Source: Lachnospiraceae bacterium (GTDB lineage: Bacteria; Bacillota; Clostridia; Lachnospirales; Lachnospiraceae). From it: 64,000 bases of DNA. Position numbers and translations under genes: made by a program. This document shows positions 20,280 to 54,411 of this stretch, piece by piece (the stretch's first letter is position 1; each line of letters opens with the position of its first letter). Below the pieces are notes generated by a model. The model was given only the letters and a program-made list of their open reading frames with translations, was not told where the DNA came from and searched no databases. Location of the stretch: assembly GCA_021203465.1 (NCBI GenBank), contig JAJQBC010000151.1, positions 1 to 64,000 of the forward strand, given 5' to 3'.

Positions 20280-21065
20280 ATGTGGTTACTGTTTTTTGTG
20301 GTAGTGCTGGTAATCTGCGCGCTGATGGTCTTCCTCCTGCTTGCGATCCGGCTTCTGACCGCGCAGGCGAAGGATCAGCTGAACCGCTATTTCCTGAAGA
20401 ATCTCGAGACCTATGACCGCCTCGCGCAGAATAAGAGCGAGACGATCGACGAGCTGCAGAGGCAGGCTGATGAGCTCGAGACGCGGATCGGGACTATGCA
20501 GGCGCATATGGATGCGATGGCTGAGATGGACAGGAGCCGCGCGTCCGCGCGTCCGGCGAGCGGCCCTGTGGCGGCCCCGATGGCTTCCGGAGCCTCCTAC
20601 CGTGACGCAGATTTCCTCAAGGACTACGCCTATGTGCGCCGGAACATGAAGCTGAACTGGAAGGAGCGCGTGCGGGAGTTGCTCGCGGAGCTGAAGGATC
20701 AGCCGGATCCGCAGCTTGCGCTTTACCGCGGGATGCTCGAAAAGCTTCCGCAGGAGCGGCTTTACGATATGCTGACGCTCTCGGACGGGGATCAGGAGGC
20801 GCTGCTTCAGGAGCTCTTTGATGAGCGTGAGCGCGAGGCCCTTGCAGAGTGGGCTGCGGAGCGGGGAGGCTTTGACCTGCTGGCGCTGCGCACTTTCCTT
20901 TCCGACTATGTGCGGGCGCACGAGGACCGTGTCTACATCCGCACGGGCAATCCGGAGGAGGTAGAGGGGCTTGAGAGTGAGCGCGTGCACGTGCTCTACG
21001 ATCCCGCCGTCCACGAGGGCGTGCGCGTCTCGTATAAGAATTTAGTGTATGATTTTGGACTGTAG
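20280..21065 (+). CDS. b-delta-like fusion stator subunit
   Basis: 261 aa occupying the b/delta position of an atp operon. Residues 2-24 are a single membrane helix. Residues about 30-85 are a charged coiled coil, as in subunit b. An Ala/Pro/Ser-rich linker (about 88-108) leads to a helical domain and a strand-rich end (YDPAVHEGVRVSYKNL) that resembles the C-terminus of delta/OSCP-type subunits, where a Gly-Gly-x-x-x strand closes the protein. I read it as a peripheral stalk fusing b and delta, a layout known from mycobacteria with a different arrangement. It ends in TAG immediately before the alpha gene, 9 bp away. Sequence similarity is weak, so the fusion is inferred from layout and topology. 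Confidence 0.7.
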   Translation: MWLLFFVVVLVICALMVFLLLAIRLLTAQAKDQLNRYFLKNLETYDRLAQNKSETIDELQRQADELETRIGTMQAHMDAMAEMDRSRASARPASGPVAAPMASGASYRDADFLKDYAYVRRNMKLNWKERVRELLAELKDQPDPQLALYRGMLEKLPQERLYDMLTLSDGDQEALLQELFDEREREALAEWAAERGGFDLLALRTFLSDYVRAHEDRVYIRTGNPEEVEGLESERVHVLYDPAVHEGVRVSYKNLVYDFGL

Positions 21066-24601: not shown

Positions 24602-24937
24602 ATGGCGAATACGACGGAGAACCCGCGGGAGAACCGCGGAAAGATGACGGCGCGGGTGGTCGGCCTCGACTCCGGTATGCAGGAGTATACGGGGGTCAGC
24701 ATCATCCGCATCAAAAGCCGTTACTACAACCTCCTGATCATGGAGGACTATATGCCGAGCATCGGCGAGATCGAGGGCGAGGTCACGATCGTGTCCGACA
24801 CGGAGTCGGTGAAGCTTGAAAACATCCGCGCCTTCTACCTGCACAAGAAAAATGTGTTCCGCATCATGATCCGGGACCAAAAAGAGGAAGCAACGCAAAA
24901 AGAAGGAACCCAAAAAGAGGAAGCAAATGTACCGTAG
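24602..24937 (+). CDS. Epsilon-like subunit
   Basis: 111-aa protein in the atpC position directly after beta. The central 70 residues have the strand pattern of the epsilon N-terminal beta-sandwich, including an IGEIEGEV segment where normal epsilon has a G-x-x-P-G turn. The usual two-helix inhibitory C-terminus is missing; instead there is a short Lys/Glu/Gln-rich tail. It could bind the gamma/c-ring interface without inhibiting ATP hydrolysis, which would suit a dedicated ATPase motor. Assignment depends on gene order plus fold pattern. Overlaps the next gene by 11 nt. Confidence 0.6.
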   Translation: MANTTENPRENRGKMTARVVGLDSGMQEYTGVSIIRIKSRYYNLLIMEDYMPSIGEIEGEVTIVSDTESVKLENIRAFYLHKKNVFRIMIRDQKEEATQKEGTQKEEANVP

Positions 24938-25724
24938 ATTTCTGTACTACATCCTGCAATTTGAATATCTGGCGCTCTTCACGGCGGTGAGCCTGATCAT
25001 CGTGACGGCGGTGCTGCTCGTGCAGATGAGGGGCTTCCAGTGGTCGAGCCGGCGGCGGCTGATGATCATCACGCTGTTTTTCAACATGCCGCCGCGCTAT
25101 ATGGTTTACCTCGCGGCGAACTATATCCAGCTGATGTTCGTGCTCTCGCAGCTTGTGACCCTGCAGGATATCGAGCTGGCGCACCTGGTATTTCTGGTGC
25201 TGCTCGGGCTCATACAGGCGCTCGCGATCATGGATCCGGCGGAGAGCGTCCGCTCTTTCCTGGGCAGCGTGCTGCTCTACGCGGCTTTCCTGATTGTGGA
25301 CCTTCTGAAGACCTACATTTTTGATCTGCGCTTTGACTGGCGGATCGCCTTTGTCTGCTTCCTGCTCTGCGCGTTTCTGGTGCTGTATTCGGTGTATTTC
25401 TTCATCAACAGCCTGAAATGCCTGGCCTCGCGGCACCTGCGGGTCGCCTCGGCTCCGCCGCGTGTGCGGAAGGAGAGGAAACCACGGCGCGTTCACCGGA
25501 CCCCGGTCGAGGAGGCCGGCGTGATCGATCTGGACATTGTGGAGCTGGACGCGCTGGATGATATACCGGAGACAACGGAAGTGCTGAAAGCGGCGGAAAC
25601 AGGCGCAGCAGAAGCGCCGGAAGTGCAGGCGGCGCCGGAGGCGGATATGCCGGAAACGGCTGAACAGGAAATAGAGGAAGTGGAGCCGCTGAAAGCAGAG
25701 AAAGCGGACACCACGGAGGAGTGA
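24927..25724 (+). CDS. Five-helix membrane protein in place of the a subunit
   Basis: 265 aa, no recognised family. About five membrane helices (roughly 8-33, 46-72, 83-101, 110-129, 137-161) are followed by a basic stretch (RVRKERKPRRVHR) and a long Glu/Ala/Pro-rich acidic tail (about 195-265). Positive residues place the C-terminus inside and the N-terminus outside, the same topology as subunit a of F-type ATPases. The conserved a-subunit helix with its essential arginine motif is not visible. Given its position after epsilon and the absence of atpB in the cluster, it may be the membrane stator of this machine or an adaptor to the surface proteins. Coupled to the epsilon-like gene by overlap. 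Confidence 0.75.
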   Translation: MYRRFLYYILQFEYLALFTAVSLIIVTAVLLVQMRGFQWSSRRRLMIITLFFNMPPRYMVYLAANYIQLMFVLSQLVTLQDIELAHLVFLVLLGLIQALAIMDPAESVRSFLGSVLLYAAFLIVDLLKTYIFDLRFDWRIAFVCFLLCAFLVLYSVYFFINSLKCLASRHLRVASAPPRVRKERKPRRVHRTPVEEAGVIDLDIVELDALDDIPETTEVLKAAETGAAEAPEVQAAPEADMPETAEQEIEEVEPLKAEKADTTEE

Positions 25725-25725
25725 C

Positions 25726-26472
25726 ATGAAAAAACCGAGCATCGATTTTACGGAACTGAAAAAGAGACGGCGGGAGATCATCGTCCCGCTCGCGCTGATG
25801 GCGGGGCTGCTGGTCGCGATCTTTATCGTCGTGCAGTTTCTGGGCAGGGCGGAGCGCGTGACGATCGACGAGACGCTCTACCAGTATATCTTCGAGACCG
25901 CCGATGTCTATTCGGACGGCGTGACGATGAAGAAGGACGAGGATTCGGTGCTCATAGACTATGGCCATCAGACGGTGACCTCGAGCGGTTATCCGCTCTA
26001 CTTCCAGGGGCAGGATAAGCTCATCCTGACGGAGAGCTTCCTCTACCTGCAGCGGGACGGCAATACCGGCGGCAAGGTCTCCTATTTTACGGAGATCACG
26101 GCTCTGGGGAATGAGACATTCCAGCTGGACGACGGCGCGAACACCACGCTGAAGGGCGGCATGCTGCACAACGGCGGGGACGTCTTTATCTTCCTCGAGC
26201 CCGCCACAGTGGAATACAATGGCAAGACAAAGGAAATCGCGGAGTTTTCCTACGTCGTCTGTTTTCAGGGGCAGAGCATCCTGATCTGGTCCTACGGCGA
26301 TGAGGAGGCGGTTCTCGAGGATCTCGACGGCTCGGGGGCATCCGTGATGATGGAAAACGGAATCGAAGTCGATGTTGCGAACGACGTTTACTATAGAGCG
26401 AACGGGACGAAGTATCTGCTCTTCACAGACCCGGATATCTTCGACCCGGTGAGCACGGCACAGGAGGAGTGA
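25726..26472 (+). CDS. Single-pass protein carrying only the shared membrane-proximal domain
   Basis: 248 aa. A basic cytoplasmic N-terminus (KKRRR), one membrane helix (about 18-40), and a beta-rich ectodomain of about 200 residues. The ectodomain follows the same order of segments as the membrane-proximal domain of the giant surface proteins, with a short block (PLYFQGQDKLILTESFLYL) comparable to PVWSNGGQSLYFLDD in the next gene and ending in a strand with D-x-A-x-x-x-Y-Y. It therefore looks like the anchor module without stalk and repeats, perhaps a core subunit of an extracellular ring. GGAGG site overlaps the end of the 5-TM gene. Function unknown. Confidence 0.75.
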   Translation: MKKPSIDFTELKKRRREIIVPLALMAGLLVAIFIVVQFLGRAERVTIDETLYQYIFETADVYSDGVTMKKDEDSVLIDYGHQTVTSSGYPLYFQGQDKLILTESFLYLQRDGNTGGKVSYFTEITALGNETFQLDDGANTTLKGGMLHNGGDVFIFLEPATVEYNGKTKEIAEFSYVVCFQGQSILIWSYGDEEAVLEDLDGSGASVMMENGIEVDVANDVYYRANGTKYLLFTDPDIFDPVSTAQEE

Positions 26473-26474: not shown

Positions 26475-29400
26475 ATGGGAAAGATAAGGCCTGAAAAAGA
26501 AAAGAAAGAGAGAAAGAAGAAAGCGGTGGCAGCGACGGCGACGGCGACGCGCTTTTCTTTCAAAACCGTGGCGGACCTGCGGCTTCTCCTTGCCGTGGCG
26601 CTCGTGGTGCTGGCGGCGATGGGCATCTTCGCCTGGGCCTTCCGCCAGATTCACATCGGCTATGTCGAGGAGGACGGCTGGGTGGTCAGCTCCTCCGAGG
26701 TCTACAACAGCCTGAATTCCGGCGCGGAGGAGGGGACGAAGATCCTGCTCACCTCTGTGAAGAGCAACGACGAGGTCATCTCACGCGCGGGCAGCTACTA
26801 CGTCGGCGCGGACATGACCGAGTATGAGTCGGCCTATCCCGTCTGGTCGAACGGCGGGCAGAGCCTCTACTTCCTCGACGACAGCGCCTCGCTCGTCACC
26901 GAGGAGTTTGAGCTGCTCTCGACCTGGGGCGGCATGTACGTGGCGGACGGCAGCTCCTTCAATGAACTGCACGAGCAGGTCGACGAAGAGACGATCTATC
27001 TCGTGAAACTGAAAAACGGACTTTACCAGAACGCGCTCGCGATCCGCTTTGCCTCCTCGAATTATGAGCAGACGATGCAGATCTATTCGGCCGCGTCTTT
27101 TTCAGATTCTTATGTGCGCTGGTTCTCGCAGAGCAGCGGCGAGCTGAGCTACCATGAGATCAGCGACCCTTCCGACCTGACGGTCTATATCGGCGATGCG
27201 AGCTACAGCTACGCGGAGTTCCTCGAGCTGCTGCGGGGCGCGGGCAAGACTCAGACGGCCTCCGACGACGAGCAGGCGACCGGCTCGATCACCGGTCCGG
27301 ACGCGGAGGAAGCCGAGCAGGAGACGATCACCGGCACCGACACGGGTGAGACCGTGAAGACAAAGAACCAGAAGGGCGACAGCGGCGACAAGGGCACGGC
27401 GGACAAGGAGAGCTCCGTGACAGCGGACGCCACAGAAGGCACGGCGGAAGGCGCATCCGGCGCGGCAGCCGCGTCCTCCTCCTCCGGCGGCAGCACCTCC
27501 GGCAGCGGTTCGGGCGGCGGCGAGGCGGAGAGCTCCGCGGAGGCTTCCGGCGCGCGCAGCAGCGCGGCAAGCACCTCGGGCGAGACCGCGGATGCGGACT
27601 GGCTGGCGCCGGACGTACAGCTCGTGATCACGCGCATCGGTGCTTACGATGTGGAGTTTGAGGTCTACATCACCGATGAGAGCGGCGTGCTGCGGAAGGC
27701 GACGATCAACGCGAACTGGACGGGCACGAACGGCGAGAGCAACGTCCGTAAATCTGTGCGCGAGGACGGTACTTACACCATCTCCAATCTCGAGACCGGC
27801 AAGACGGTCACGCTGACCGTGACCGCAAAGTACCGCAACAGCGCGGGCGACTACGTCGAGGATGTCTGTGCCACGCTGACCTTCACGACGCTCACGATCG
27901 CGGCGGGCACGAATACGCTCTATATCGACTATACGGCGGATCAGGAGACCCGCGACGAGACAGTGTATAACAAGGAAACCGGAGAATACGAGTATCCGGG
28001 TTACGACGAAATCTACGCGACCCAGATCGAGATTCAGGATCTGCGTGTCTACGAGGGCAGCGACGGGCAGATGGCGGAGGACGCGTCCACGATGGACTAT
28101 GTCCGCTACTTCTACGTGCGCGTCTATGCGCGCGACGGTAATACGGCGGGCGATACGCCGGTGCAGTCCTACCTCCTGAGTTCCTCCGAGCGCACGCGCG
28201 TGATGAGCGAGGGTATCGACTGGCTCTCCGACTCCCTCTCGGCGCTCTATACAAGCACGGATTACCGTTATGAGTTCGAGCTGCTCGACCGCTACGGCGA
28301 GTCGATGAAGGTCGGCTACGGCACGGTCAGCGACGATGGGACGGTCACGAAGAATACCAGCCGCTATGCCTCCAACGGGACGACTGCGCTCACGTATCAG
28401 GACGAGAGCTGTGACCGCAACGCCTACACCTGCGCGGCGGATCCGAGCGGGAAGCTGACGCTCGGCACCTCGACCTATGACAGCCAGACCATCGCGGTGA
28501 AATTTACGAACGCGGCTTCGGACAGCTCCTCCAGTCAGGATGAGGGCGGCGCTACGATCAGCGAGCTCTATCTCGTCGAGAATGAGACTGCTTACGGCCG
28601 CTTCATCCTCTGGAACACGGACGGCGACGACATCACGGGTGAGATCGGCACCGCGGAGCTCACCGACAGCACATATGCGCGCTACAGCCTGCTGGCGAAA
28701 GCCACGACGGAGCCCTATGTGAACAGCGAGGGCGAGACCGTCACGGATGACTACGAAGCCTATCCCGGTGTAACCGTGGACGGCGTGACCGAAAACAATG
28801 TCGGTACCTACGACAATGGGACGGAGTTCACCTGGACGAAGATGAAGATCCCGGCCTTCGCGGGCTCCACCTACACGATCAAGCTCTACGCCTCCTACGA
28901 CACGGGCAACCGCGAGGGCACGCAGTACGGACAGCTGCTCGCGACGCGCAGCAACGCCCGCACGGCTTCCCTGAGCACGCTCGGCAGCGTGAGCTTCACG
29001 CGGCAGAATCTGGACGCGGACGACGAGAGCGCGACCTTCAGTTACACCTCCAGCCTGCCCTCCACGAGCCTGCAGCCGCTGCTCTACAAGTATGAGTATG
29101 ATCTCACGGACGAAGACGACAATACGGTCTTTACGCTGCTCATCTCGAAGGACTACGAGGAGATCTCCTCCTCGCAGCAGGGCATCTGGCTGACAGCCGG
29201 AAGCTACTCGGTCGAGGCCGCAGACTGGACGCTGAATTACAGCTTCCCCTACACGCAGACGCTGGGCACGACGACGAGCTCGCATGTCGTGAGCAGCACG
29301 ATCAGCTACGCAGACGGTGTCTTCACGCGCACAGTGTATGTGGACGGCGAGGATCGAAGCTATACCTTTACCTACCCCGCCTCGGGAACGATTGACACGA

Positions 29401-30653
29401 CAAACGATGATGCGAACGAACTGATTCTGGCGCAGCTGATGGAGATCCTGGAGGAGCTGGATAGCTACAGTACCGTCGTCGACACGAGTCAGGAGTCGTC
29501 GACCACCGGCATCACCGACGGCACCGCCACGGTCTCCCTGAGCTTCAAGAAGATCACAGATGACAACGATTCGACCCGCGTGCTCTTCGACGCGGACGAG
29601 GATTACAGCTTCTCGCTCACGGCTTCGGAGCTCCTCGCGGCCTGCACGGACGTTCAGGCAGACACGGACACCGCGGCCTCGGAGAAGACCTGGGGCTACA
29701 CCTGGCTCTACGCGCTGAGCGCGGAGCGCGCGCAGCTCTCCCTCACGGTGGGGAACCTCGCGAGCTCCTCGACCTACACGGCCTCGGCCTGCGCCTATGC
29801 CTGGCAGACGGGCAACTATACCTATACGGACGATGAGAGCAGCGACGCCGAGCCGGCGCTCGTGGCGGTGACGACGACGGATGCGAGCCTCACGGTGATG
29901 ACCACGAAGGCGGAGCCGGAGGTCTACATGGACGTCTTCGCGACATCCTCGGAGATCACGCTCTACGGCTTCTATGTCTACGACCCCGACGAGGCGATCA
30001 TCGCGAAGCGCAGCGGCCTCGTGCCGACGGTGACGGTCAGCGTCTACCTCGTGGATGACTCTGGAAATGAGACTCTCGTGGCGCAGGAGACGGTGACGGA
30101 TATCGCGACGACGGAAGAGGAGACCGAGAGCTATGCGCAGGATCTCAGCTTCGGCGGCCTTGTCTCCGGCGCGACCTACTATATCAGGGTGACGGCTGAC
30201 GCCCTCGACCTGACGGCGGACGGAAGCAATACGCAGTACAACTATCTGATTGGCGAGGATGAGACGAATTCGAAGTACGTGAGCGCCGGTACCTGGGCGA
30301 CCACGCTCGGCGCGGACGCGGAGACCGGGCTCTTCCTCGAACGCGTGGAGGAGAGCGACCCCTATACCCTCGAGGGCCAGCTCATCGACTACACGACGGC
30401 GGACGCCCAGATCGCGGCGGGCACGGAGGGCGGCTGGGAGGTCGGCTATCTCACGACCAGCGGTACGCTGAGCGCGAGCACCAGCTACCGTACGACGCCC
30501 TATATCGATCTGCGCGCACGCGATGAGAACGGCAATGTGGATACCACCTATGAGCTGAGCGAGTCGGACATCTTCCTCGGGCGGAATATCTACTATATTA
30601 TCGCGCTTTATGATGAAAGCTACAACTATCTGGGCTACGCGCGCTCTCTCTGA
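26475..30653 (+). CDS. Colossal surface protein, N-terminal part up to an in-frame opal stop
   Basis: First segment of a reading frame open from 26,475 to 41,723 apart from two stops (about 5,080 codons). It starts with a Lys/Glu-rich cytoplasmic stretch, an N-terminal membrane helix (about residues 36-58), the family EEDGW segment and a membrane-proximal domain related to that of the 248-aa protein. A Ser/Gly/Ala/Glu low-complexity linker (about residues 255-375) replaces the collagen-like stalk, followed by Fn3-like domains. I chose ATG 26,475 rather than GTG 26,469 because AGGAGG lies 7 nt before it. It ends at TGA 30,651, after which the same frame continues with coding-like sequence. Inferred to be the largest filament or adhesin of the system. 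Confidence 0.85.
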   Translation: MGKIRPEKEKKERKKKAVAATATATRFSFKTVADLRLLLAVALVVLAAMGIFAWAFRQIHIGYVEEDGWVVSSSEVYNSLNSGAEEGTKILLTSVKSNDEVISRAGSYYVGADMTEYESAYPVWSNGGQSLYFLDDSASLVTEEFELLSTWGGMYVADGSSFNELHEQVDEETIYLVKLKNGLYQNALAIRFASSNYEQTMQIYSAASFSDSYVRWFSQSSGELSYHEISDPSDLTVYIGDASYSYAEFLELLRGAGKTQTASDDEQATGSITGPDAEEAEQETITGTDTGETVKTKNQKGDSGDKGTADKESSVTADATEGTAEGASGAAAASSSSGGSTSGSGSGGGEAESSAEASGARSSAASTSGETADADWLAPDVQLVITRIGAYDVEFEVYITDESGVLRKATINANWTGTNGESNVRKSVREDGTYTISNLETGKTVTLTVTAKYRNSAGDYVEDVCATLTFTTLTIAAGTNTLYIDYTADQETRDETVYNKETGEYEYPGYDEIYATQIEIQDLRVYEGSDGQMAEDASTMDYVRYFYVRVYARDGNTAGDTPVQSYLLSSSERTRVMSEGIDWLSDSLSALYTSTDYRYEFELLDRYGESMKVGYGTVSDDGTVTKNTSRYASNGTTALTYQDESCDRNAYTCAADPSGKLTLGTSTYDSQTIAVKFTNAASDSSSSQDEGGATISELYLVENETAYGRFILWNTDGDDITGEIGTAELTDSTYARYSLLAKATTEPYVNSEGETVTDDYEAYPGVTVDGVTENNVGTYDNGTEFTWTKMKIPAFAGSTYTIKLYASYDTGNREGTQYGQLLATRSNARTASLSTLGSVSFTRQNLDADDESATFSYTSSLPSTSLQPLLYKYEYDLTDEDDNTVFTLLISKDYEEISSSQQGIWLTAGSYSVEAADWTLNYSFPYTQTLGTTTSSHVVSSTISYADGVFTRTVYVDGEDRSYTFTYPASGTIDTTNDDANELILAQLMEILEELDSYSTVVDTSQESSTTGITDGTATVSLSFKKITDDNDSTRVLFDADEDYSFSLTASELLAACTDVQADTDTAASEKTWGYTWLYALSAERAQLSLTVGNLASSSTYTASACAYAWQTGNYTYTDDESSDAEPALVAVTTTDASLTVMTTKAEPEVYMDVFATSSEITLYGFYVYDPDEAIIAKRSGLVPTVTVSVYLVDDSGNETLVAQETVTDIATTEEETESYAQDLSFGGLVSGATYYIRVTADALDLTADGSNTQYNYLIGEDETNSKYVSAGTWATTLGADAETGLFLERVEESDPYTLEGQLIDYTTADAQIAAGTEGGWEVGYLTTSGTLSASTSYRTTPYIDLRARDENGNVDTTYELSESDIFLGRNIYYIIALYDESYNYLGYARSL
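30651..30653 (+). other. In-frame TGA interrupting the colossal gene
   Basis: The frame is open on both sides of this TGA, and the 108 nt between it and the GTG at 30,762 contain no other stop. One base change from TGG (Trp) or CGA (Arg) would remove it. Confidence 0.95.
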
Positions 30654-30761
30654 AGCAGCAGCACTAACAGCACCTCCTATACGACGCAGATCTTCCGCCT
30701 CTCGGGCGGACCGCTCATCAGTGGCTCGTCCTTCGAGCTCTCCAAGGTCGTCTACGCCCGC

Positions 30762-33092
30762 GTGAGTATCTATAATACCTATGCGAATGAGGCGTATTTT
30801 GGCAGGCTGGACGAGGACTACTTCACGACCACGAAGGCGGCGGACGCCGAAAGTGCAAAGCTCGGAGACGACTATACGGATGTCTACGGGCAGGTGCTGA
30901 ACAGCGAGGATCAGTGGAGCGAGTATATAACGGTCGGGACGACGGAAACAGATGCCGACAGTTATTATGACGTAAATATTCCGGTCTCGGACAGCAATAT
31001 CGTCATGCTCACGGGCAAGAGCGGCACGAGCTCGATCATCCGCGGTGTGAAGTTCTATGATAGCAGCGGAGTGATCGGCTCTACCATGGGCATGACGGGC
31101 GCCCTGCTCGTCGTACCGTCGGGGACGACGTACATGAAGCTGGAATACAAGTCGTCCGACAGCTCCGCGGTCGGCCTCGGCCTCTACATTCTGAATGACG
31201 GCGGCGATATCGCCGATGCCTATAAGGCGCAGATGGGGAGCATGACCGCTACGAGCGGTAAGAGCCTGAGCACCAGCAGCGGCAACAATACCACGAGCTC
31301 CAGCTCACTGATCGAGGTCACCGATAGCTATATCGAGGTAGAGCCGGGCGATCTTCTGATGATCTCGAACCAGGCGCAGGTTATCGCGCTCTACGACAAA
31401 GATGAGAACTTCGTCAGCTATACGCAGGGCATGTCGAGCGGTTACAACTATCTCATCGTGCCGGATGGCGTATACAAGATCCGTTTTGCCAACAGCATCT
31501 ACAGCACAAGCGCGAACTGGGACATCGCAGACGGCTATAAGATCCTCTTCCTGAACTGCGGGAGCGTCAAGAAGGTTTACGAGAGTAAACTTACGGCGGA
31601 TGGGTCGGCGGTCTACAAGAGCTCCGCTCAGCTCTACGCGAACCTGCGCATCCATATCAGTGATCCGAGCGGCACGGAGAGCTCGAACTTCGCGGGCTAT
31701 GGAGATACGAGCAGCCAGTTCTGGCTGCGGGTTTACAGCGCCGCCTATGACTCCTCGGCGACGGACGACGAGGTGAGCGACGAGACGCTGGAGGCGGGCG
31801 GCTATACGGACTACGCGTTGACCGACATCACGCTTGTAAACAGCCTCGCGAGCGTCAACCTCTGCCGCTTCGTCCCGGTGGCGAAGAGCATGAGCTACCG
31901 CGTGGAGCTCTGGGCGACGAAGGGCAGCTCGCTGCAGAACGTACAGCTCGGCAAGGCTTACTTTACGGTGGACAGCTCCGGCACGCCGGTCTTCGGCCTC
32001 AGCAGCGAGGCGCAGATCTCGAGTCTGCGCAGCAGCACGGAGAGCTTCGTGCTGACGCAGGATGTCTGCTTTACGGACAATACCAATCTTAACGGCGGCA
32101 CCTTCTACGGGACGCTCGACCTTCAGGGGAACACGCTTACGACCTCGAAGGGCGGGGTATACCTGTTCGAAAATATCGGTTCCGCCGCGAAGCGGACGAC
32201 GGTCATAAAGAACGGTACGATCGCGGTCGACTATGAGCGCACAGAGGGCACGATTGCCCGGATCACCTATCAGTGCTACGGTACGATTAAGAACGTGCTG
32301 TTCAGCATCGACGCGGCGAATCCGATCTTGAGTGGCTCGGGCAGCACGGCGGTCTACGATAACAGCATGTGGACCTCGGAATACAATACCTATTTCATTA
32401 CCCTTAACTACGGTACGATCCGCAACTTTGCGGTCGAGTACGTGTCGGATCTGGTGAGCTGCTGGTACGCGGGGCTGATCTACAGCAACAGTGGGACGAT
32501 CGAGAACGGCTACCTCTACGGCGACGGTTGCGTGCGCGGCGGTTCCTATGTGGGCGGCCTGGTGACGGTCAACAATGCAGCCGGTACGGTGCGCGGGATC
32601 TACAGCACGATCGACGCGAAGGCGAATACGACAACGGCCGGCTCGAACAACCTGAGCAGCAGCAGTAATATCAAGACGGTGGCTTACCTCGGCACGGTGA
32701 TCGGCGTCAACAACGGCACGGCGGACGGCATCCTCGCGACCGGAGACGTCTATACCTATACGACGAGCCGTTCCGGCTCGAACTACCTCTTCTCCGATGA
32801 GGAGGTCTATACGAACTATGGATGCGCGGTCGGCAGGACCGGCTCGAAGAAGGCCACGACGAACGTGTACTACGCGACGGTCGGCTCAGGAGAGCGCAAC
32901 AACTACTCCTCCAGTTCCTACAACGAGCGCGTGGAGGCGGGCCTTCTGGCGGATTCCGAGTGGTGGCTTGAGCTCTGGGAGAGCGTGAGCGCCTTCGGCC
33001 TCGATGAGGATGAGATCGACAGCCTGCTGGAGCTCGGCTGGTACCCCTGGATCAGCATGGGCGTGGCGGCGGACAAGTACAGCATCCTGTAG
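30762..33092 (+). CDS. Colossal surface protein, middle part between two in-frame stops
   Basis: Same frame as 26,475 and 33,159; GTG 30,762 is just the first start-like codon and lacks a ribosome site. Two tandem beta-sandwich modules are visible (each with a FYDSSG or LYDKDEN loop followed by a VPSG or VPDG strand), a pattern common in secreted carbohydrate-binding or phage-tail-like domains. Another beta domain follows, then the start of a beta-helix (repeated short strands ending in Asn/Gly turns), including a first GLUG-like SYVGGLV motif near nt 32,550. Ends at TAG 33,090. No export signal of its own. Confidence 0.75.
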   Translation: MSIYNTYANEAYFGRLDEDYFTTTKAADAESAKLGDDYTDVYGQVLNSEDQWSEYITVGTTETDADSYYDVNIPVSDSNIVMLTGKSGTSSIIRGVKFYDSSGVIGSTMGMTGALLVVPSGTTYMKLEYKSSDSSAVGLGLYILNDGGDIADAYKAQMGSMTATSGKSLSTSSGNNTTSSSSLIEVTDSYIEVEPGDLLMISNQAQVIALYDKDENFVSYTQGMSSGYNYLIVPDGVYKIRFANSIYSTSANWDIADGYKILFLNCGSVKKVYESKLTADGSAVYKSSAQLYANLRIHISDPSGTESSNFAGYGDTSSQFWLRVYSAAYDSSATDDEVSDETLEAGGYTDYALTDITLVNSLASVNLCRFVPVAKSMSYRVELWATKGSSLQNVQLGKAYFTVDSSGTPVFGLSSEAQISSLRSSTESFVLTQDVCFTDNTNLNGGTFYGTLDLQGNTLTTSKGGVYLFENIGSAAKRTTVIKNGTIAVDYERTEGTIARITYQCYGTIKNVLFSIDAANPILSGSGSTAVYDNSMWTSEYNTYFITLNYGTIRNFAVEYVSDLVSCWYAGLIYSNSGTIENGYLYGDGCVRGGSYVGGLVTVNNAAGTVRGIYSTIDAKANTTTAGSNNLSSSSNIKTVAYLGTVIGVNNGTADGILATGDVYTYTTSRSGSNYLFSDEEVYTNYGCAVGRTGSKKATTNVYYATVGSGERNNYSSSSYNERVEAGLLADSEWWLELWESVSAFGLDEDEIDSLLELGWYPWISMGVAADKYSIL
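33090..33092 (+). other. In-frame TAG interrupting the colossal gene
   Basis: The frame is open on both sides, with no other stop in the 66 nt before ATG 33,159. Context ATC CTG TAG CCC TAT is compatible with an original CAG (Gln). Confidence 0.95.
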
Positions 33093-33158
33093 CCCTATCT
33101 CGAGCTCGACATTGCCTCCTCGGCGAGCTTTGACCTCGTCAAGGCGGAGCTGGACTAT

Positions 33159-36100
33159 ATGGAATACGACGACGAGGGCTTTGAGACGGCGACGGTCACC
33201 TTTACCTTCCTGAACCCCTCGAACTATACCGTGATGGCGGTTACCTCGAGCTATCTCTCGATCGATGTGATCGACGACACGCAGGAATTCGACGAGCAGA
33301 GCGGTTTCTGTACCGTGCAGGCGACGGTGACGGTCAATAAGTCCTCGGGTAAATATCTGGACAGCTACGACATCGCGACGGTCCGCTACAAGCGTACCGC
33401 GACCAGCAACGTGCAGAACTCCGTGCGTTATACGGTCACCGGCTACACATCCTCGAACGGCAGCCGCACGATGGACGTGCCTTTCTACTATCCGCTGCAC
33501 GATGCGGAGGAGTGGACGACGATCTTCACCTCGGATCGCGCGGACGAGAATTTCCGCATCTGGAACTCGGAGGAAGGCCTCTCACGCAGCGACCCCGACG
33601 CCTACGACTGGAACTTTAACGGATACTACACAGACAGCGACGGCAAGGTGGTCTACTACCAGTCGGCGAAGACCTTTACCTTCAGCGGCAGTCTCGACGG
33701 CACGATGTTTGCGCAGAATGCGGAGACCGGGAAGTGGGAGGAGGCCTACGATGAAAACGGTGCGCTGAAGACCCATGTGCTTACGAACATGGTCGACTAC
33801 ACGTTCAGTTACAATTCGAGCGGCGCGGTCAATTATGCCTACTGGCGGGGGGCGGTCTTCCCCACGCTGAGCGGCAGGATTACGAACCTGACGGTTCAGA
33901 ATTATACCTCCGGCGTGCTCAGCAGCAGCCACAGCAACAACAGCAGCATTACGGCAAAGGTGAGCTCGCTCACGGTCAGCGGTAACAGTACGCTGACAAA
34001 CATCGGTTTCATCGGACAGCTGAGCAGCAACTCGGAGCTGGAAAATGTACATATCATTGGCGCTAAGTATGCGCCGGAATCCAGTAAGATGAGCACGACG
34101 AACCGCATCGGCGGTCTGGTCGGCTACTCGGTGGGTTACAACAACTATACGAACTGCTCGGTGACGGACGCCCGGATCTCTACCGCGGACGACAACAAGA
34201 GCAAGCTCTACGTGGGCGGCCTCGTCGGCGTCAGCAGCAGCTACGACAGCTTTACGGGCTGCTTCACGGCGGACCTGACGCTCGAGACCTGCAGCTCTTC
34301 GGTGAGCACCTTTGACCCGCAGGGCATCGGTGGCCTGGTCAGCTACTCGACCTACGGCAGCTACAGCGGCTGCTACAGCTCGGGCACGCTCGACTCGGAG
34401 CTGAGCTACACGGGAGGCCTCATCGGGCGCACGCTCAGCACGACGGACGTCGCCTGCTGCTACTCGGCGATGAATATTACCCTGAACGGCGCGAACAGCG
34501 GCGGCCTCATCGGCGCGAACAGCGGCACGCTGACGCTGCAGAACTGCCTCTACACGGGAGCCCTGAGCGCGACCTCGACCTCCGGCACGGTGCATCTCAT
34601 GCTGGGCGGCAACAGCTCGGCGGCGACGATCGAGGGCTGCTATGCCTACCAGCCGAATCTTGACAAAGACAGCTCGCTGCTCGACGGCGACGGGCTGACG
34701 CTGCTGACGGACGACGGCACGCTGACGACGAGCTTCTATCAGACGCTCTTTGGCAGCGAGCTCTACGTCTATACGTGGAGCGTCGGCAGCACCGACTGCA
34801 GCACCGACAGCGGTTCGGAGCCGCAGTATCTGCCGGGCGTGGCGGCGGACGGCCTCCTGGCTCTTGGTCAGGTGCTGGATGAGACCTGCTATGTGCCGAC
34901 AGTCGTGGCGGACGAGCTGGGGATCAGCGACATCTGGGCCTTTGAGACGGGCGACCGCCAGACGATTTCGGCGGTAACGGGCAGTCCGGTGAGCGCGAGC
35001 GAGGGCTTTACCGTAAGCGGAATGAATGTCAGTTACACACCGAACGATATCGAGTTCACGCTGAGCCTGGGCAGCTACGGCTATACGGTCGCGACCATCG
35101 AGATCGACGGCCTTGCGGCGGGCGAGATCGAGTGGACGAATGAGAATAAAAATTATACGGATAATACAAACTTTGATACAAAGGGCTTCACGACGGGCTC
35201 GAAGTTCTACGCTTATCAGGTGAAGGATGGCACCAGTACAGGGGATTACCGCATCAGCCTCTACGGCGCGGAGGTGGTCTCCTACCAGGATACCTACAGC
35301 ATCACCGTGACGCTGACGAACGGCATCGTGCTCAAGCAGAGCTTCCAGTTCCGCAATTCCGCGGGAGTGGAGGAGGCGAAGTACCTCGAGATCTCGGACG
35401 CCATCGCCTGGAACCTCTACTTCGGTAGCGAGGGCGAACTCGACGATCTGCTGGCAGGCGGCGCGTATACCACTTATACAGGGTATTCAGATCTTAAGAC
35501 AAACGCAGAGGAAGTGGCGGATCTGCTGGACGACTATTACGGCTATACCTACAAGGGTTATGCGGCCTCCTCGATGAACATAAAGATCGCGGGAACGATC
35601 GACTTCAGCGTGCTGGACAAGCTGGAGACATATCTGGCGGTCTCCGAGTCGCCGGTCATGAACGTGCAGGCGAACAATGTGCTCGGCGAGGACGGAGCCG
35701 GAGCCTCCGTCACGAACCTGAAGGAGACGGCGCTCACGACCACGACCTATGGCCTCTTCAAGACGATCTCCGGTTCGCTCACGGGCGTGGACTTCTCCGA
35801 CTGCACGCTCTGGTGGGCGAGTTCGGTGGGGCCGAGTAACGCGGACCTTGTCGGCACGCTCTCGGGCGGCATGACAGACTGCGAGTTCAGCAATATTACG
35901 CTTGCACGCGGCGCTTCCTATTTCGGCGTCGTCGGCAATGGCAGCGGAGTCTTTAAAAATATTACGCTCTCGAATGTTTCGGTCGACACGGACGGAAGCT
36001 ATGCGGGCGGCCTCGTCGGCGCGCTGCACGGCGACCTTGTGGGCGTGACGGGCAGCGGCCTCGACGTGACGGGCAGCAGCTACGTCGGCGGCCTTGTCGG

Positions 36101-39100
36101 CATCATCTACAGCAGCGAGCAGGAGACGAGCGGACATGAGCTCATCGGCGGAACGGATTATTCGGAGTCGGCGGAGGGAACGACATACACTGTCGGCGGC
36201 TGGTACGAGACATTTATGAGCGATACGGGCAATTACCCCGCCTCCTCGAGCAGTGAATACTGGTACCGTGACAGCCTCTCCTACGACTATGCACTTGTCG
36301 ACACGATTTCCGTCGCGGATGTGGCGGTGACCGCGAAGACGGGCTATGTGGGCGGCATCGCCGGGCAGCAGACCTATACCAAGAGCACGAACGTGGGTTA
36401 CGGTTATCTGATTGCACAGCACCTGACGGCGAAGGATGTGAGCGTGTATGGCAGCGGCTCCTATACGGGCGGTCTTTTCGGATTCACGCGGACTGCCATG
36501 GTGTACGATGTCAAGGCGACGAGTGTGGCGGTGGAAGGCGGCACGTACGGTTCCGGCGGCCTCTTTGGAAGCGTGTACGGCTCCACTACGTATGATTACT
36601 CGGCCTGCAACAGCTCCGGGGATCGGGTGCAGTACTTCCTGAGTGTATTGTACGATATTGCGTGTACGGACATCTCCGTGAGCGGCTCCGAGCAGTATGT
36701 GGGCGGCATCTACGGTCTGGGGAACTCGGCGACAATCCTTGACGCCGTGGAGATGAATGATGTCACCGTACTGGCGGCGGCGACCTACGTGGGCGGCCTG
36801 TACGGTTACAATGGCACTGTCGCCAATGCTTATATGAATGAGATCACGGCGAAGGGCATCTCCATCTACAATACGGGTTCCAGCTCGACGAGCAAGAAGT
36901 ACACCGGCGGCCTGACCGGCCGGTACGGCTACTTCCGGGATCTGGATGCGCAGGACATTCTCGTGCTGGCTCCGGGCGACAGCTCCTATGTGGGCGGCAT
37001 CTCCGGTATACACCCGAACCTGTACACTTATGCGACGGATGTTTATGCGACGGATGACAGCAACACGATGAACACTGTCAAAAATGTGCGCGTCTACGGG
37101 CGCAGCTACGTGGGCGGTATCGCCGGCTCGAACACCAGTAGCGCTATCCGTTACCTGTATGCTGACGGCATTTCCGTCACGGGCACCGGCGACTATGTGG
37201 GCGGCCTCCTCGGCTATACCACGGTGGGCGTGAGCTATGTGACAGCCTCGAACATTACGGTCGTCGGCGGCGGCGCCGCGGTGGGCGGCGGCGCCGGCAA
37301 GGCGATCAGCGGCAACTGGTCGCACTGCGATTTCTCGAACGTCACGGTCACGGCGACCGGCACGAAGACGGCGACCGGCGCGACCTCTGCGATCACCTCC
37401 TCCACGGACGCGGACAGCATCGTGAGCGGAGAGGCCGTGGGCGGCCTGATCGGCGCGGGCTATGGGAATGTGGTTCAGTACGATGCTTTCACGAACGTGA
37501 AGGTCTATGACAGCGTCTCCGGTGCGCAGTATGTGGGCGGTATCTTCGGCGTCGTCAGGGGCGGCTATCTCACCAGCTCCTCGGTCTCGAAGACGCAGGT
37601 CCTGGCGGCGAACGCGGACTACGTCGGCGGCGTCGCGGGCTATGCGCGGGGCGCGAATAACTGGGGTACCAACGCGCTGGATGCGACGGTCTCCGGAGGC
37701 AGCAATGTCGGCGGCATGATCGGTTATATGGAGAATACGAGCACGACCGGCGGCATGGGCATCAACAAGAACCAGATCAAGGCGACGGTCGTGGCCACGG
37801 GCGACAATGTAGGCGGCGCGATCGGAGGAGCGTCCTATCTCCGGTACCTGTACTGGAACTCGGTCGAGGCGACCGTGACCGGCTCTTCGACTGCGAGCGA
37901 CAATGTGGGCGGCCTGGTCGGTTATATGAGCCTGGCGAGCAGCAGAAGCATGTATGACAATCAGGTCGTGAGTGTCGTGAATGGCAGTAACTACGTGAGC
38001 GGCATGCTCGGCTATGTGGACGGCACGCTGGGTACGGATGCCAGAAACAATGTTGTGGCCACGAATGTGACCGCGGCGGAAAATGCGACGACTTCCTTCT
38101 TCTATTATCAGACGGGAGACGGGGAGCATCAGGTGGATGTGTCGGGTAATTCCAGTTCCTATGGTTATCCCTACTACCTGCGGCTGTGGGAGAAGTCTTC
38201 GATAACAGCGGGCAGCAGTACGACGACGGCGATCGGGCAGACATTCTGGCAGCGTACAGGTACGAGTACCTGGGCTAAAAACAAGCTGACCTATTGGAAC
38301 GCCGGGCGAAAGGGTGTCGCGCAGCTGGTGACGACGGCTGACCTTAAGAATACCACGGCGAACCCGGTCATCAGCAATACTACTTATACTTATAAACACT
38401 TTGACAGCTCCTGCTATGGCCTTACCCGCACGACCTACAGCTTTACCGTGACGACCGAGAATGACACCACCACAGTGAGCGTGCCGAACAGCGGACTGGT
38501 GGCGACTTCCGAGTACTGGAGCCTGCTGGGCTTTGAGACGAGCCTGACGGGCGGCAGCAAGATCTACCTGCCCTCGCCGATCAACCCGCTGCGCCTGAGC
38601 GTGGATCTGACGGAGAACCTGAACGAGAGCAATTACTACACCGGCAACAGCAAGGTGACAAGCTCAACGAACGGCTATTACTTCGGCTCAGCCAGCCTGA
38701 TTTCGGCGAGCGTGGAGACAAATCCGCTGGTGCTGAGCTACTCCCTGACCGACGGCATCTGCGTGCCGGGCACGAGCGGCTCGATCCTCTCGGAGACCGG
38801 TACGGCCAGCTCGAGCACGACGGTGGCGACCGCACCGACGCTCAGCATCGCGACGGCCCCGCAGGTCTACGCGACGGGCGCTTACACCCTGAACGTCGAG
38901 TTCAGCTCGACCGACTCCTATGCGGGCGCGTGGGTCGGCGTCTATACAGATTACGGAACGGAGGATGAGGAGGAGCTGGTATATACCTTCTTCGCGAACA
39001 GCTCGACCCTGAGCTACAGCATGGTCTACGATTTCAGCACCGACATCACGATCGTCGTCGCGGACTGCGGACCGCTGGCGGGCGGGGACGATACGCTGTA

Positions 39101-41723
39101 TGTTTACGATGCGACTACGACGGAGGGTTACACAGAGTACACGACGGGTACGCAGCAGATTGTCAACGAGATCAGCCTCGACGCCGGCAGCCTGTGCAGC
39201 CGCGTGGTTCTCAGCAGCGGTTACCTCTATGTGATCGGCAGCGACGGGCAGGTCTACCGCTATAAGACGACTTATGACAAGGAAACGCAGGATCTGGTGG
39301 CGGAGGATGACAACGGCTTCATCCACATCTACGCTTCGAGCTCCGATGTACTGGCTCTCACCGGCGCGGGCAAGATTGTCCGTATAAGTGATTCGAGCAC
39401 GGATACCCACGTTGGCTATACGGTGAACGTCGTCGCCGGAGCGGTGGCGGATGCCAGCTTTACGACGGACTCCGGAGGCACCGGCAGTGTCGGCGGAACG
39501 CAGACGGCGAGCGCGGGGCAGGCAGTGGGCAGCGCATCATCAACTGTCAACGAAGCTGGCGGCAGCTGGGCTGTGGCCACAGTGAGCGGAGGTGACAATG
39601 TCATGATGACAGGGAGCAGCGCGAGCGAGGGGATCCTCCTCGCCGACGCGGCCTGTGAGAGTATAATAGCGGGTGCAGACACCTGTACGCAGCACTATCT
39701 GGTGGGGAAGGACCTTCTGACAGGGGAGCTGAGCGCGCAGCTGCGGCTTTATGCGACGGCAGATCAGTCGGAGGAAAGTTCCTCCGGCAGCACGTCTGAC
39801 AGCTCGACAGAGAGCACATCGGGCACGACGTCGACGGACAGCTCGGGGAGCGCAGTGGATGCGACATCCTCCGGGAGCTCTGCGGATAGCACCTCGACGA
39901 CAGACAGTTCGACGAGCAGCTCGGGGAGCGCAGTGGATGCGACATCCTCCGGGAGCTCTGCGGACAGCACCTCATCGACGGACAGCTCGGACGGCACATC
40001 GGATGCAACAACATCCAATAGTACGACGAACAGTTCCACAGCTACGACAACTTCGGACGGTTCGACGGGGGAGGTTTCGTCTTCATCTGGCGCGGATGAG
40101 TCGGAGAGTACGGAAAGCGCCCTCAGCGGCAGCGTGGACAGCGTCGACCTGTCGGCGGACGACGAGACGGAATCTGACTTCGATGAGAGCCTGCTCGATG
40201 CGGAGCCGCTCTTCGAGTTTGACTACGGCAGCTACCACATCTGCACCTACGTGACCTACTCGCTCATTTTCGATGAGGACGGGAACGTGACACAGCGGAA
40301 CATGCAGCTCTTCGTGAAAAACGGGCAGCTATTTGCGCTGAACGCGCCGGACGAGGTCGTGCCGGGCTGCGTGATTATTGACACTTATCTTACGAATACC
40401 TATATGACCGTGCTGCGGAACGACGGCGTGATGGTCGACCTCATGGACGAGCTCAATTATCCCGACGACTTCACGAACCGCGGCATCAAGAACCTCAGCC
40501 ACAACATGTACTCCGATTTAAGCTGCGTGCTGGTCGAGTATGAGGACGGCTCCGTCATCAGCTTCAACTACCTGACCGGCAGCGTTCTCTATGAGCTGGA
40601 GGCTGACGCGGAGGAGAGCACCTATACCTCGAGCTTCTGGAGCTACATCAGTTCCTTCTTCCGCGGCAAACTGGACGCGGCCTATGCCGATGTCTCGGCG
40701 GCCTACGCGAACGCGAAGGAGCTGAAGGACTATTTAAGCGATCTGCCCTGGAAGAACTGGTTTACGGCGAACAGCAGCGGCGAGTATGTCGATGGTGAAG
40801 CGGAGGGCGGTGAGACCGCCGCGTCTCTGGCCTCCGAGAGCGGTGAAACTGACGCCGAAGCAGACAGCGATGCGGAAGCGGGCGAAGGTGACAGCGCTGC
40901 CCTGACGGGCGAGGCGGCTTCCACGGCCACTTCCGGCACGGACAGCGACGCCGGGACAGGCGTCGACGCTGCCCTGACGGGCGACGGGACCTCCCTGACC
41001 AGCGTTGGCACAGCAGACAGCGGCACGGAGGCGACCGGGGACGAGAGCACGGCTCTGACGGACGAGGAACTCTCCGTGGCCAGTGTCAGCATTGACGGCG
41101 ACACGGAAGCGGCGGCGGGCGAGAGCGCAGCCCTGACGGACGAAGAAGCACTCGCGGCCAGCGCCGGGACAGGCATCGACGGCGAAGCAGGCACGGTCGA
41201 CAGCTCGGTTCTGACGGGCGAAGAGGCCGAAGAAACCGGCGTCGAAACAGACAGCGCTTCCGGGACGGCGGTGGGTGGAAGCTCCGCCCTGACGGGTGAC
41301 GAGAGCGCTGTGGAGGAGACTGCGGCAGATGCCGCTGTGACCTCCGACGAAGCGCTGGAGAGCATCGGCACAGCGGGTGAGTCCGAGAATACCGCGGACA
41401 CGGCGGGCACTTATGCGCTCGAGGACGAGCTGATCATCGCCTACGACGCGGACGCGAACGGCTATGCGCTCTACGCGGCCTCCGATCTGTTGACCGGCTC
41501 CTCCGGGGCAGTGATGAGCGTCGACAGTGCCTACAAGGATTACATCGAGAACGGCGGCGAGACGACCGCCGAGGGTACGGCGCTTCTGAGCCTCGAGGTC
41601 ACCAGCCAGCAGCAGGGCGGCCTCATCATGCTGGGGCTCATCGGCGGCGCGGTCGGCCTGATGCTGGTCGTTCTGCTCGTACAGCGCTCCACGCGCCGCA
41701 GACGCCGCAGCGACCGGAACTGA
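33159..41723 (+). CDS. Colossal surface protein, C-terminal part with GLUG beta-solenoid repeats and C-terminal anchor
   Basis: 2,854 aa in frame with the two preceding segments. A small beta domain leads to a first GLUG array (about 5 motifs of the type GGLVG or GGLIG, nt 34,108-34,520). A spacer domain follows, then a second array of about 19 YVGG-L/I-x-G motifs (nt 36,000-38,020), typical of right-handed beta-solenoids. After further beta domains come a Ser/Thr/Asp low-complexity stretch with a 78-bp tandem repeat, a globular domain (about nt 40,190-40,640), and a degenerate acidic repeat built on SAALTG or SAALTDEE units. Last come a C-terminal membrane helix and a cytoplasmic RRRRR tail. 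With the N-terminal helix upstream, the intact protein would be membrane-tethered at both ends. Confidence 0.85.
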   Translation: MEYDDEGFETATVTFTFLNPSNYTVMAVTSSYLSIDVIDDTQEFDEQSGFCTVQATVTVNKSSGKYLDSYDIATVRYKRTATSNVQNSVRYTVTGYTSSNGSRTMDVPFYYPLHDAEEWTTIFTSDRADENFRIWNSEEGLSRSDPDAYDWNFNGYYTDSDGKVVYYQSAKTFTFSGSLDGTMFAQNAETGKWEEAYDENGALKTHVLTNMVDYTFSYNSSGAVNYAYWRGAVFPTLSGRITNLTVQNYTSGVLSSSHSNNSSITAKVSSLTVSGNSTLTNIGFIGQLSSNSELENVHIIGAKYAPESSKMSTTNRIGGLVGYSVGYNNYTNCSVTDARISTADDNKSKLYVGGLVGVSSSYDSFTGCFTADLTLETCSSSVSTFDPQGIGGLVSYSTYGSYSGCYSSGTLDSELSYTGGLIGRTLSTTDVACCYSAMNITLNGANSGGLIGANSGTLTLQNCLYTGALSATSTSGTVHLMLGGNSSAATIEGCYAYQPNLDKDSSLLDGDGLTLLTDDGTLTTSFYQTLFGSELYVYTWSVGSTDCSTDSGSEPQYLPGVAADGLLALGQVLDETCYVPTVVADELGISDIWAFETGDRQTISAVTGSPVSASEGFTVSGMNVSYTPNDIEFTLSLGSYGYTVATIEIDGLAAGEIEWTNENKNYTDNTNFDTKGFTTGSKFYAYQVKDGTSTGDYRISLYGAEVVSYQDTYSITVTLTNGIVLKQSFQFRNSAGVEEAKYLEISDAIAWNLYFGSEGELDDLLAGGAYTTYTGYSDLKTNAEEVADLLDDYYGYTYKGYAASSMNIKIAGTIDFSVLDKLETYLAVSESPVMNVQANNVLGEDGAGASVTNLKETALTTTTYGLFKTISGSLTGVDFSDCTLWWASSVGPSNADLVGTLSGGMTDCEFSNITLARGASYFGVVGNGSGVFKNITLSNVSVDTDGSYAGGLVGALHGDLVGVTGSGLDVTGSSYVGGLVGIIYSSEQETSGHELIGGTDYSESAEGTTYTVGGWYETFMSDTGNYPASSSSEYWYRDSLSYDYALVDTISVADVAVTAKTGYVGGIAGQQTYTKSTNVGYGYLIAQHLTAKDVSVYGSGSYTGGLFGFTRTAMVYDVKATSVAVEGGTYGSGGLFGSVYGSTTYDYSACNSSGDRVQYFLSVLYDIACTDISVSGSEQYVGGIYGLGNSATILDAVEMNDVTVLAAATYVGGLYGYNGTVANAYMNEITAKGISIYNTGSSSTSKKYTGGLTGRYGYFRDLDAQDILVLAPGDSSYVGGISGIHPNLYTYATDVYATDDSNTMNTVKNVRVYGRSYVGGIAGSNTSSAIRYLYADGISVTGTGDYVGGLLGYTTVGVSYVTASNITVVGGGAAVGGGAGKAISGNWSHCDFSNVTVTATGTKTATGATSAITSSTDADSIVSGEAVGGLIGAGYGNVVQYDAFTNVKVYDSVSGAQYVGGIFGVVRGGYLTSSSVSKTQVLAANADYVGGVAGYARGANNWGTNALDATVSGGSNVGGMIGYMENTSTTGGMGINKNQIKATVVATGDNVGGAIGGASYLRYLYWNSVEATVTGSSTASDNVGGLVGYMSLASSRSMYDNQVVSVVNGSNYVSGMLGYVDGTLGTDARNNVVATNVTAAENATTSFFYYQTGDGEHQVDVSGNSSSYGYPYYLRLWEKSSITAGSSTTTAIGQTFWQRTGTSTWAKNKLTYWNAGRKGVAQLVTTADLKNTTANPVISNTTYTYKHFDSSCYGLTRTTYSFTVTTENDTTTVSVPNSGLVATSEYWSLLGFETSLTGGSKIYLPSPINPLRLSVDLTENLNESNYYTGNSKVTSSTNGYYFGSASLISASVETNPLVLSYSLTDGICVPGTSGSILSETGTASSSTTVATAPTLSIATAPQVYATGAYTLNVEFSSTDSYAGAWVGVYTDYGTEDEEELVYTFFANSSTLSYSMVYDFSTDITIVVADCGPLAGGDDTLYVYDATTTEGYTEYTTGTQQIVNEISLDAGSLCSRVVLSSGYLYVIGSDGQVYRYKTTYDKETQDLVAEDDNGFIHIYASSSDVLALTGAGKIVRISDSSTDTHVGYTVNVVAGAVADASFTTDSGGTGSVGGTQTASAGQAVGSASSTVNEAGGSWAVATVSGGDNVMMTGSSASEGILLADAACESIIAGADTCTQHYLVGKDLLTGELSAQLRLYATADQSEESSSGSTSDSSTESTSGTTSTDSSGSAVDATSSGSSADSTSTTDSSTSSSGSAVDATSSGSSADSTSSTDSSDGTSDATTSNSTTNSSTATTTSDGSTGEVSSSSGADESESTESALSGSVDSVDLSADDETESDFDESLLDAEPLFEFDYGSYHICTYVTYSLIFDEDGNVTQRNMQLFVKNGQLFALNAPDEVVPGCVIIDTYLTNTYMTVLRNDGVMVDLMDELNYPDDFTNRGIKNLSHNMYSDLSCVLVEYEDGSVISFNYLTGSVLYELEADAEESTYTSSFWSYISSFFRGKLDAAYADVSAAYANAKELKDYLSDLPWKNWFTANSSGEYVDGEAEGGETAASLASESGETDAEADSDAEAGEGDSAALTGEAASTATSGTDSDAGTGVDAALTGDGTSLTSVGTADSGTEATGDESTALTDEELSVASVSIDGDTEAAAGESAALTDEEALAASAGTGIDGEAGTVDSSVLTGEEAEETGVETDSASGTAVGGSSALTGDESAVEETAADAAVTSDEALESIGTAGESENTADTAGTYALEDELIIAYDADANGYALYAASDLLTGSSGAVMSVDSAYKDYIENGGETTAEGTALLSLEVTSQQQGGLIMLGLIGGAVGLMLVVLLVQRSTRRRRRSDRN
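34108..38020 (+). repeat. GLUG-type repeat arrays (YVGG-L/I-x-G)
   Basis: About two dozen copies of a short motif G-G-[LIMV]-x-G, usually preceded by Tyr-Val, spaced roughly 30-60 residues, in two blocks separated by a non-repeat domain at about nt 34,700-35,980. The motif matches the GLUG repeats known in secreted adhesins and IgA1-protease-type proteins. Confidence 0.85.
39840..39995 (+). repeat. Two-copy 78-bp tandem repeat in the Ser/Thr-rich region
   Basis: The first 47 nt of each copy, beginning AGCTCGGGGAGCGCAGTGGA, are identical at 39,840 and 39,918; the remainder is similar. It encodes a 26-aa SSGSAVDATSSGSSADST-type unit. Recent duplication in a low-complexity linker. Confidence 0.85.
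40790..41400 (+). repeat. Degenerate acidic repeat with SAALTG/SAALTDEE units
   Basis: About seven imperfect units of roughly 30 residues containing ALTG or ALTDEE, just before the C-terminal membrane helix of the colossal protein. Strongly acidic and probably disordered: a spacer that would cross the cell wall. Confidence 0.7.
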
Positions 41724-54309: not shown

Positions 54310-54411
54310 AGAGACCGTGATAAACGTTTATCTTGAAGTGGCATTTCGCCATAGGCTCACAGTTTTATTCTGAGCCGGATTCCATGAAGTATAGCAGTAA
54401 GGAGGACCAAC

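Follow-up and report, generated by a model that had tools for sequence, protein, structure and literature searches.

F1-like ATPases that act with large surface proteins have been described in mycoplasmas (PMC12994834, PMC11864180). The Type 3 enzyme, the F1-like X0 ATPase, is needed for MIB-MIP function and has been described as mycoplasma-specific (PMC12994834, 2026), and for the Type 2 enzyme, the G1-ATPase, a role in gliding by pulling on Gli521 and Gli349 has been proposed (PMC11864180). Here we analyse a 64,000-nucleotide stretch of a Lachnospiraceae genome (referred to as the window) in which a gene cluster, like those of mycoplasma Types 2 and 3, encodes F1-like α, β and γ subunits apart from the F1F0 operon. 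A search of openly accessible papers (no subscription papers or preprints) returned no account of a cluster of this kind beyond the mycoplasmas, and the family is new to the literature searched. On balance, and by a modest preference, we read the last gene of the cluster as encoding a giant double-anchored surface protein, the cluster itself as an F1-like ATPase without recognisable F0 whose ATP-hydrolysing rotary motor moves extracellular giants, and the window copy of the giant as lesioned.

The motor cluster and its distribution

The α, γ and β products of the cluster (Table 1) are clear F1 homologues, and the P-loop of the β subunit reads GGAGVGKT in 74 of 78 loci and GGAGIGKT in three others. 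The giant is the last gene, directly after the rotary ATPase genes and those for proteins D and E, in agreement with the preliminary description, which had placed it near the motor. Pfam analysis of the cluster membrane proteins recognised none of the F0 subunits a, b and c, nor δ, and when profiles of the small protein, C, D and E were compared with single sequences of canonical ε, a, b and c, nothing matched. A distinct F1F0 operon lies elsewhere in this genome, on contig C150, with c, b and ε matched by Pfam. The description of C as a stalk and of D as a membrane rotor or stator is guesswork from their appearance.

Table 1. Features of the cluster and of its terminal giant, in window coordinates
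Feature	Position	Strand	Remarks
N-anchored surface protein, 837 aa	767..3280	+	weak Fn3
N-anchored giant surface protein, 2,452 aa	3305..10663	+	intact
g3, third N-anchored giant, 2,504 codons	10682..18196	+	one frame with a single TAG at 14402 (Tyr in relatives)
Protein B, N-anchored, 537 aa	18273..19886	+	
Protein C, N-terminal TM then helix-rich charged region	20280..21065	+	stalk-like by appearance only
F1 α-like subunit, 441 aa	21075..22400	+	shorter C-terminus; P-loop GDKKTGKT
F1 γ-like subunit, 258 aa	22397..23173	+	
F1 β-like subunit, 469 aa	23186..24595	+	with P-loop
Small protein at ε position, 111 aa	24602..24937	+	not linked to ε by sequence
Protein D, multi-TM	24927..25724	+	about 4 TM
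Protein E, N-anchored	25726..26472	+	related to N-terminal domains of A, B and, more weakly, the giant
Ancestral frame, giant double-anchored surface protein	26475..41723	+	5,082 codons and terminal TGA; two internal stops
Giant: N-terminal transmembrane segment, residues 37-55	26583..26639	+	hydropathy; single helix in AlphaFold2 model
Giant: membrane-proximal beta-rich domain, to residue 270	26640..27284	+	confident model, no PDB fold match; in 30/31 homologues
Giant: in-frame TGA, codon 1393	30651..30653	+	this copy only; C129 paralogue reads through
Giant: conserved core, about residues 1801-2700	31875..34572	+	matched in 25-30/31 homologues, first hundred residues 16/31
Giant: in-frame TAG, codon 2206	33090..33092	+	Gln in both relatives
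Giant: GLUG-like solenoid repeats, 21 motifs, residues 2546-3812	34110..37920	+	motif scan and Pfam
Giant: conserved C-terminal beta domain, residues 4560-4775	40152..40799	+	partial beta-propeller-like
Giant: acidic low-complexity stretch, residues 4761-5010	40755..41504	+	59 D/E, 0 K/R
Giant: C-terminal transmembrane segment, residues 5051-5069, then basic tail	41625..41681	+	hydropathy

Elsewhere in the window, a gene for a Fic/DOC family protein (42026-43018) lies directly 3′ of the giant, and secretion or pilus-like genes occupy 54333-62817 (T2SSE ATPase, DUF5702 and DUF6382 with FHA). Contig C76 of the same genome (L015-L016) carries other large GLUG ORFs of 2,236 and 2,919 aa, where the motor is not seen.

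An alignment search of genome contigs with the γ subunit found at least 129 related loci, of which 80 were kept, and most of these have the same neighbours in the same order as the window: an N-anchored giant of type A, B, C, α, γ, β, the small protein, D, E and a long ORF that starts with an N-terminal hydrophobic segment. The hosts include Lachnospiraceae, Oscillospiraceae, Family XIII, Peptococcaceae, Bacilli, Coriobacteriales and Bifidobacterium colobi, and the cluster is rare in even samples, being present in 5 of the 396 other members of the family and in 2 of the 398 remaining members of the phylum sample. Its occurrence in B. colobi LC6 (Actinomycetota, L086) and in Coriobacteriales bins suggests that it has moved horizontally between phyla. 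Three loci (L143, L146 and L148) have the gene order α-β-small-γ, and in five from Bacilli (L114, L118, L119, L130 and L150) the α-like subunit has a long C-terminal extension, for a total length of 562-1,087 aa.

Architecture of the giant

The membrane anchors were judged by hydropathy and inspection. Both hydrophobic end segments of the window giant are kept in a paralogue in the same genome and in a congener, and the C-terminal one is followed by QRSTRRRRRSDRN, so that the N-terminal TM segment, the C-terminal TM segment and its basic tail are as the preliminary description had proposed. Its term "bitopic" is wrong, as a chain with a TM segment at each end and its bulk outside crosses the membrane twice and forms a single huge loop on the exterior. 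The figure of about 24 GLUG repeats was roughly right: 21 GG[hydrophobic]xG motifs were counted, and one stretch (37098-37181) matches PF07581 (GLUG) at 23.2 bits against a Pfam gathering score of 20.5. The acidic repeats are also found, as the low-complexity stretch in Table 1. The Fn3-like and carbohydrate-binding modules that had been named have no Pfam support in the window giant even at E ≤ 1, and across the giants Pfam found nothing, the PF07581 match in the window copy being the sole one over cut-off.

Homologues mainly match the window giant at residues 100-300, 1800-2700, 3400-3800 and 4600-4800. The AlphaFold2 model of the N-terminal domain (residues 25-270, mean pLDDT 93.9) consists of one helix followed by a beta-rich domain, for which Foldseek returned no match in the PDB at E ≤ 0.001. 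The model of the C-terminal domain has a mean pLDDT of 80.1 and its Foldseek matches are propeller proteins with TM-scores of about 0.2-0.36, values so low that they do no more than suggest a partial propeller. Profile comparison linked protein E to proteins A and B with probabilities of 89-97 and, more weakly, to the N-terminal domain of the giant with a probability of 70; a membrane-proximal module common to E, A, B and the giant is therefore plausible from these profiles.

The architecture was followed through 31 clusters picked for a long downstream ORF and enough contig, a sample that cannot gauge how often the giant is absent. An uninterrupted, complete giant of 2,914-4,589 aa is present in 29 of them; the giant of L168 is open beyond 6,664 aa, and that of L160 has a break close to its end. 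In 28 of the 31, a single ORF holds the two end segments, and none of its internal segments exceeds a mean hydropathy of 1.72; L164 lacks the N-terminal segment as called, possibly through start choice. The C-terminal TM segment was reached, and is present, in 30 of the 31 clusters (29 in frame, and in L160 in the next ORF after a frame break), so this part of the preliminary description extends to the homologues, and four further genomes (G351, G174, G035 and G330) also have it; their giants are intact, measure 3,724-4,321 aa and carry both end segments. The basic C-terminal tail is found in nearly all giants, the exceptions being L166 and L167. No LPXTG-type motif occurs in the window copy, and among 34 copies the last 90 residues contain only three weak LPxx[GN] strings, which is evidence against anchoring by sortase. 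Judged by these predicted segments, the double-anchored giant architecture is real as a family.

Cleavage of the N-terminal segment as a signal peptide, which would leave the mature giant held by its C-terminus alone, we consider unlikely. Signal peptides and anchors have similar hydropathy, and some copies have a possible small-x-small cleavage site (for example AWA in the window and in its paralogue), but this site is not conserved, the congener having AWM; the segments are uncharged runs of 15-25 residues followed by polar or aromatic residues (such as QTRF or QFYR), and the model has an unbroken helix running into a domain that is conserved in 30 of 31 homologues.

In some Bacilli clusters (L118, L119, L130 and L146) the downstream sequence at hand contains no giant and has a series of 200-700 aa ORFs. 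Directly after the giant of L163 lies a GGDEF-EAL protein of about 762 aa (L163:13768-16050), hinting at c-di-GMP control; a protein of about 762 aa, matched by length and ends only, is also found directly after the giant in L162, L166 and L167.

Interruption of the window giant

The preliminary description had taken the ORFs at 26469/26475-30653, 30762-33092 and 33159-41723 as one frame of about 5,080 codons. The three do share a common reading frame, but this frame is not open, as a TGA and a TAG interrupt it (Table 1). BLASTP aligned residues 7-4467 of the window giant with the paralogue on contig C129 in a single segment (41.7% identity), followed by a second segment at residues 4569-5054 (50% identity), and because the first spans both stops the continuity of the frame is beyond chance. 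The window giant is also collinear with the paralogue, the congener and intact homologues, and codon scores are coding-like on either side of each stop. The TAG lies within conserved text, KYSIL(stop)PYLELD against KYSIRQPYL in both relatives, and the TGA in a less conserved stretch. By these alignments, the frame reads as real coding sequence descended from one ancestral frame; since two stops interrupt it, a full-length product from the window copy is unlikely unless they are read through.

The paralogue is part of a second, complete cluster that this genome carries in identical gene order (C129:30001-69919). The motor subunits of the two copies are 88-94% identical and the giants only about 41%, a contrast between a conserved motor and fast-changing surface parts. 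The dN/dS values between the copies are 0.08-0.15 for the motor genes, whose products are under purifying selection, and about 0.5-0.6 for the giant in all three segments separated by the stops, an equality that gives no sign of a long-decayed tail. The C129 giant, of about 5,000 codons, has one TAG (at 65287), and the C129 g3 has another (at 45374).

In the congener (genome G012, locus L079, Lachnospiraceae bacterium isolate C.6_6) the cluster is split over two contigs; its giant is broken by an apparent insertion element at the contig ends, a frameshift and a TAG, and its g3 by a frameshift. The putative element has a short target repeat and inverted ends that are common to the next contig. 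A conserved gene boundary at the window TGA was considered and rejected, as the nearby TAA of the congener adjoins the apparent element at a contig end. No stop position is common to the window, C129 and the congener.

That the stops are read through or recoded, so that the strain makes the full 5,080-residue protein, is very improbable. Such a reading would fit the occurrence of stops, mostly TAG, in the giants of both clusters, the equal rates of evolution before and after them, and one additional TAG that interrupts a coding frame in another part of the genome. However, both TGA and TAG occur, at unshared positions where the aligned residues of relatives are Gln (33090), Tyr (14402), Trp (45374), Leu/Thr (65287) and Tyr (the TAG of the congener), and 29 of 31 homologues have no stop. 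Random nonsense mutation in the giant and g3 genes would be expected to give TAG in 61-66% of cases from codon usage, so that the five TAG and one TGA seen are unremarkable. RF1 is present in this genome and TAG ends other genes; in the same draft, 98.5% complete, no PylS scored over the cut-off and no tRNA with a CTA anticodon was found by a non-exhaustive pattern search with ARAGORN follow-up.

It is improbable that the stops are consensus errors from a metagenome assembled at low coverage and that the gene is intact in the organism. The genome is a draft of 158 contigs, a contig of the congener is listed at 6.4x coverage, and repeats favour mis-assembly; against this, stops are present in a non-repetitive segment too, and as about one in 20 random errors gives a stop, five stops would imply around a hundred errors in these genes. 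The surface genes of the clusters in this genome hold five in-frame stops in about 66 kb, against a single candidate, a TAG on contig C70, in about 190 kb of other contigs; the binomial tail for this contrast is about 0.005, to be taken as a rough guide as the choice of candidates from a scored list was visual and that on C70 was included without homologue comparison. The C70 stop, at about position 5408 of L056, lies within a coding frame unrelated to the giants. A real split into three genes, with N-terminal, middle and C-terminal proteins made separately, is the sort of outcome that an ATG or GTG within about 110 bases downstream of each stop would allow, and is still extremely improbable: there is no ribosome-binding site upstream of 30762 or 33159, the middle piece would have no export signal, and the sites are common to no relative.

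As the stops are unshared and no recoding signal was found, they, including those of the window giant and its sister g3, are most likely recent independent lesions in fast-evolving genes, and the window gene probably yields no full protein. The giant may be dispensable in this genus, because all three copies in it are broken. These lesions caution against treating the three ORFs of the window as one product.

Proposed mechanism and comparison with known systems

In a machine of the kind we favour, a cytoplasmic α3β3-γ core would hydrolyse ATP and turn γ, and C, D, E and perhaps the small protein at the ε position would tie this core to the membrane, replacing a, b and c. Across the membrane, this rotation would reach the ends by which the giant and the N-anchored surface giants are anchored, the extracellular solenoid loop would be pulled, wound or released, and the cell could thereby hold on to gut surfaces, mucus or other cells, let go of them or glide over them. 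The parts of the first step and the architecture of the giant are read directly from sequence; we infer the later steps and the coupling of motor to giant, for which operon position is the sole link, and the putative ε, stator and rotor roles follow from where the genes lie or how their products look.

The F1-like ATPase could instead serve export or folding of the giants (compare FliI-type enzymes) and drive nothing mechanically at the surface. Giants of such size need export help, and α and β also match FliI/SctN models; these matches are far weaker than those to F1, however, and separate α and β subunits with a γ shaft are the F1 arrangement, in a cluster that has no export-gate genes, making such a role distinctly unlikely. 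As a wider and more tentative proposal, one that we hold at somewhat below even, the rotary motor that moves giants could represent an undescribed machine of walled gut bacteria, spread across Clostridia, Bacilli and Actinobacteria, in which an F1-like ATPase, coupled to the membrane through parts of its own, winds or pulls a double-anchored loop of 3,000-5,000 residues. It is rare for a giant to be fixed at its two ends, and in this geometry torque or tension, beyond tethering, could be the point. If the machine is conserved in walled gut bacteria, motor action on the cell exterior would be testable in culturable organisms, and isolates with the cluster include Chakrabartyella piscis, Lachnospiraceae bacterium G11 and B. 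colobi.

The cluster shares homology of α, β and γ with the F1F0 ATP synthase, but has no a, b, c or δ, its α is short by about 70 C-terminal residues, and the synthase has its own complete operon elsewhere in the genome. The Giant1-5 proteins of Apilactobacillus kunkeei (PMC12863079) are likewise very large extracellular repeat proteins encoded by consecutive genes; the giants here, for their part, carry hydrophobic anchors at their two ends and are encoded with a motor.

The mycoplasma systems come closer. With the Type 2 G1-ATPase of Mycoplasma mobile (PMC11864180) the cluster shares the proposed use of an F1-like ATPase to pull on surface proteins of very large size, although its β has no extra N-terminal domain, and the MMOB1660 model scores the cluster α at 402 bits and the canonical α of the genome at 442. 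All NCBIfam scores fall below their cut-offs (MSC_0619 306/520, MSC_0618 382/570, MMOB1660 402/600 and MMOB1670 375/850 bits). Among the cluster genes there is no counterpart of the 12-TM membrane protein of the seven-gene Type 2/3 clusters, D having only 4 TM, and hydropathy revealed no protein with two adjacent C-terminal TM segments, a further Type 2/3 feature. Compared with Type 3 and MIB-MIP (PMC3369863, PMC12994834), the gene order here is α-γ-β-small, the membrane proteins are a 4-TM D, a TM-plus-helix C and an N-anchored E, the surface partners are giants of 2,000-5,000 aa in place of MIB and MIP, and the hosts are walled gut bacteria. Since the 12-TM protein, the paired C-terminal TM segments and scores above the family cut-offs are all lacking here, the best reading by analogy is that the cluster would work like the mycoplasma F1-like and G1 machines and is not a member of them. 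What it has in common with Type 3 is an extra set of F1-like α, β and γ subunits besides a true F1F0, membrane proteins of unknown kind with no recognisable F0 genes, linkage to large surface proteins and a patchy spread suggesting horizontal transfer.
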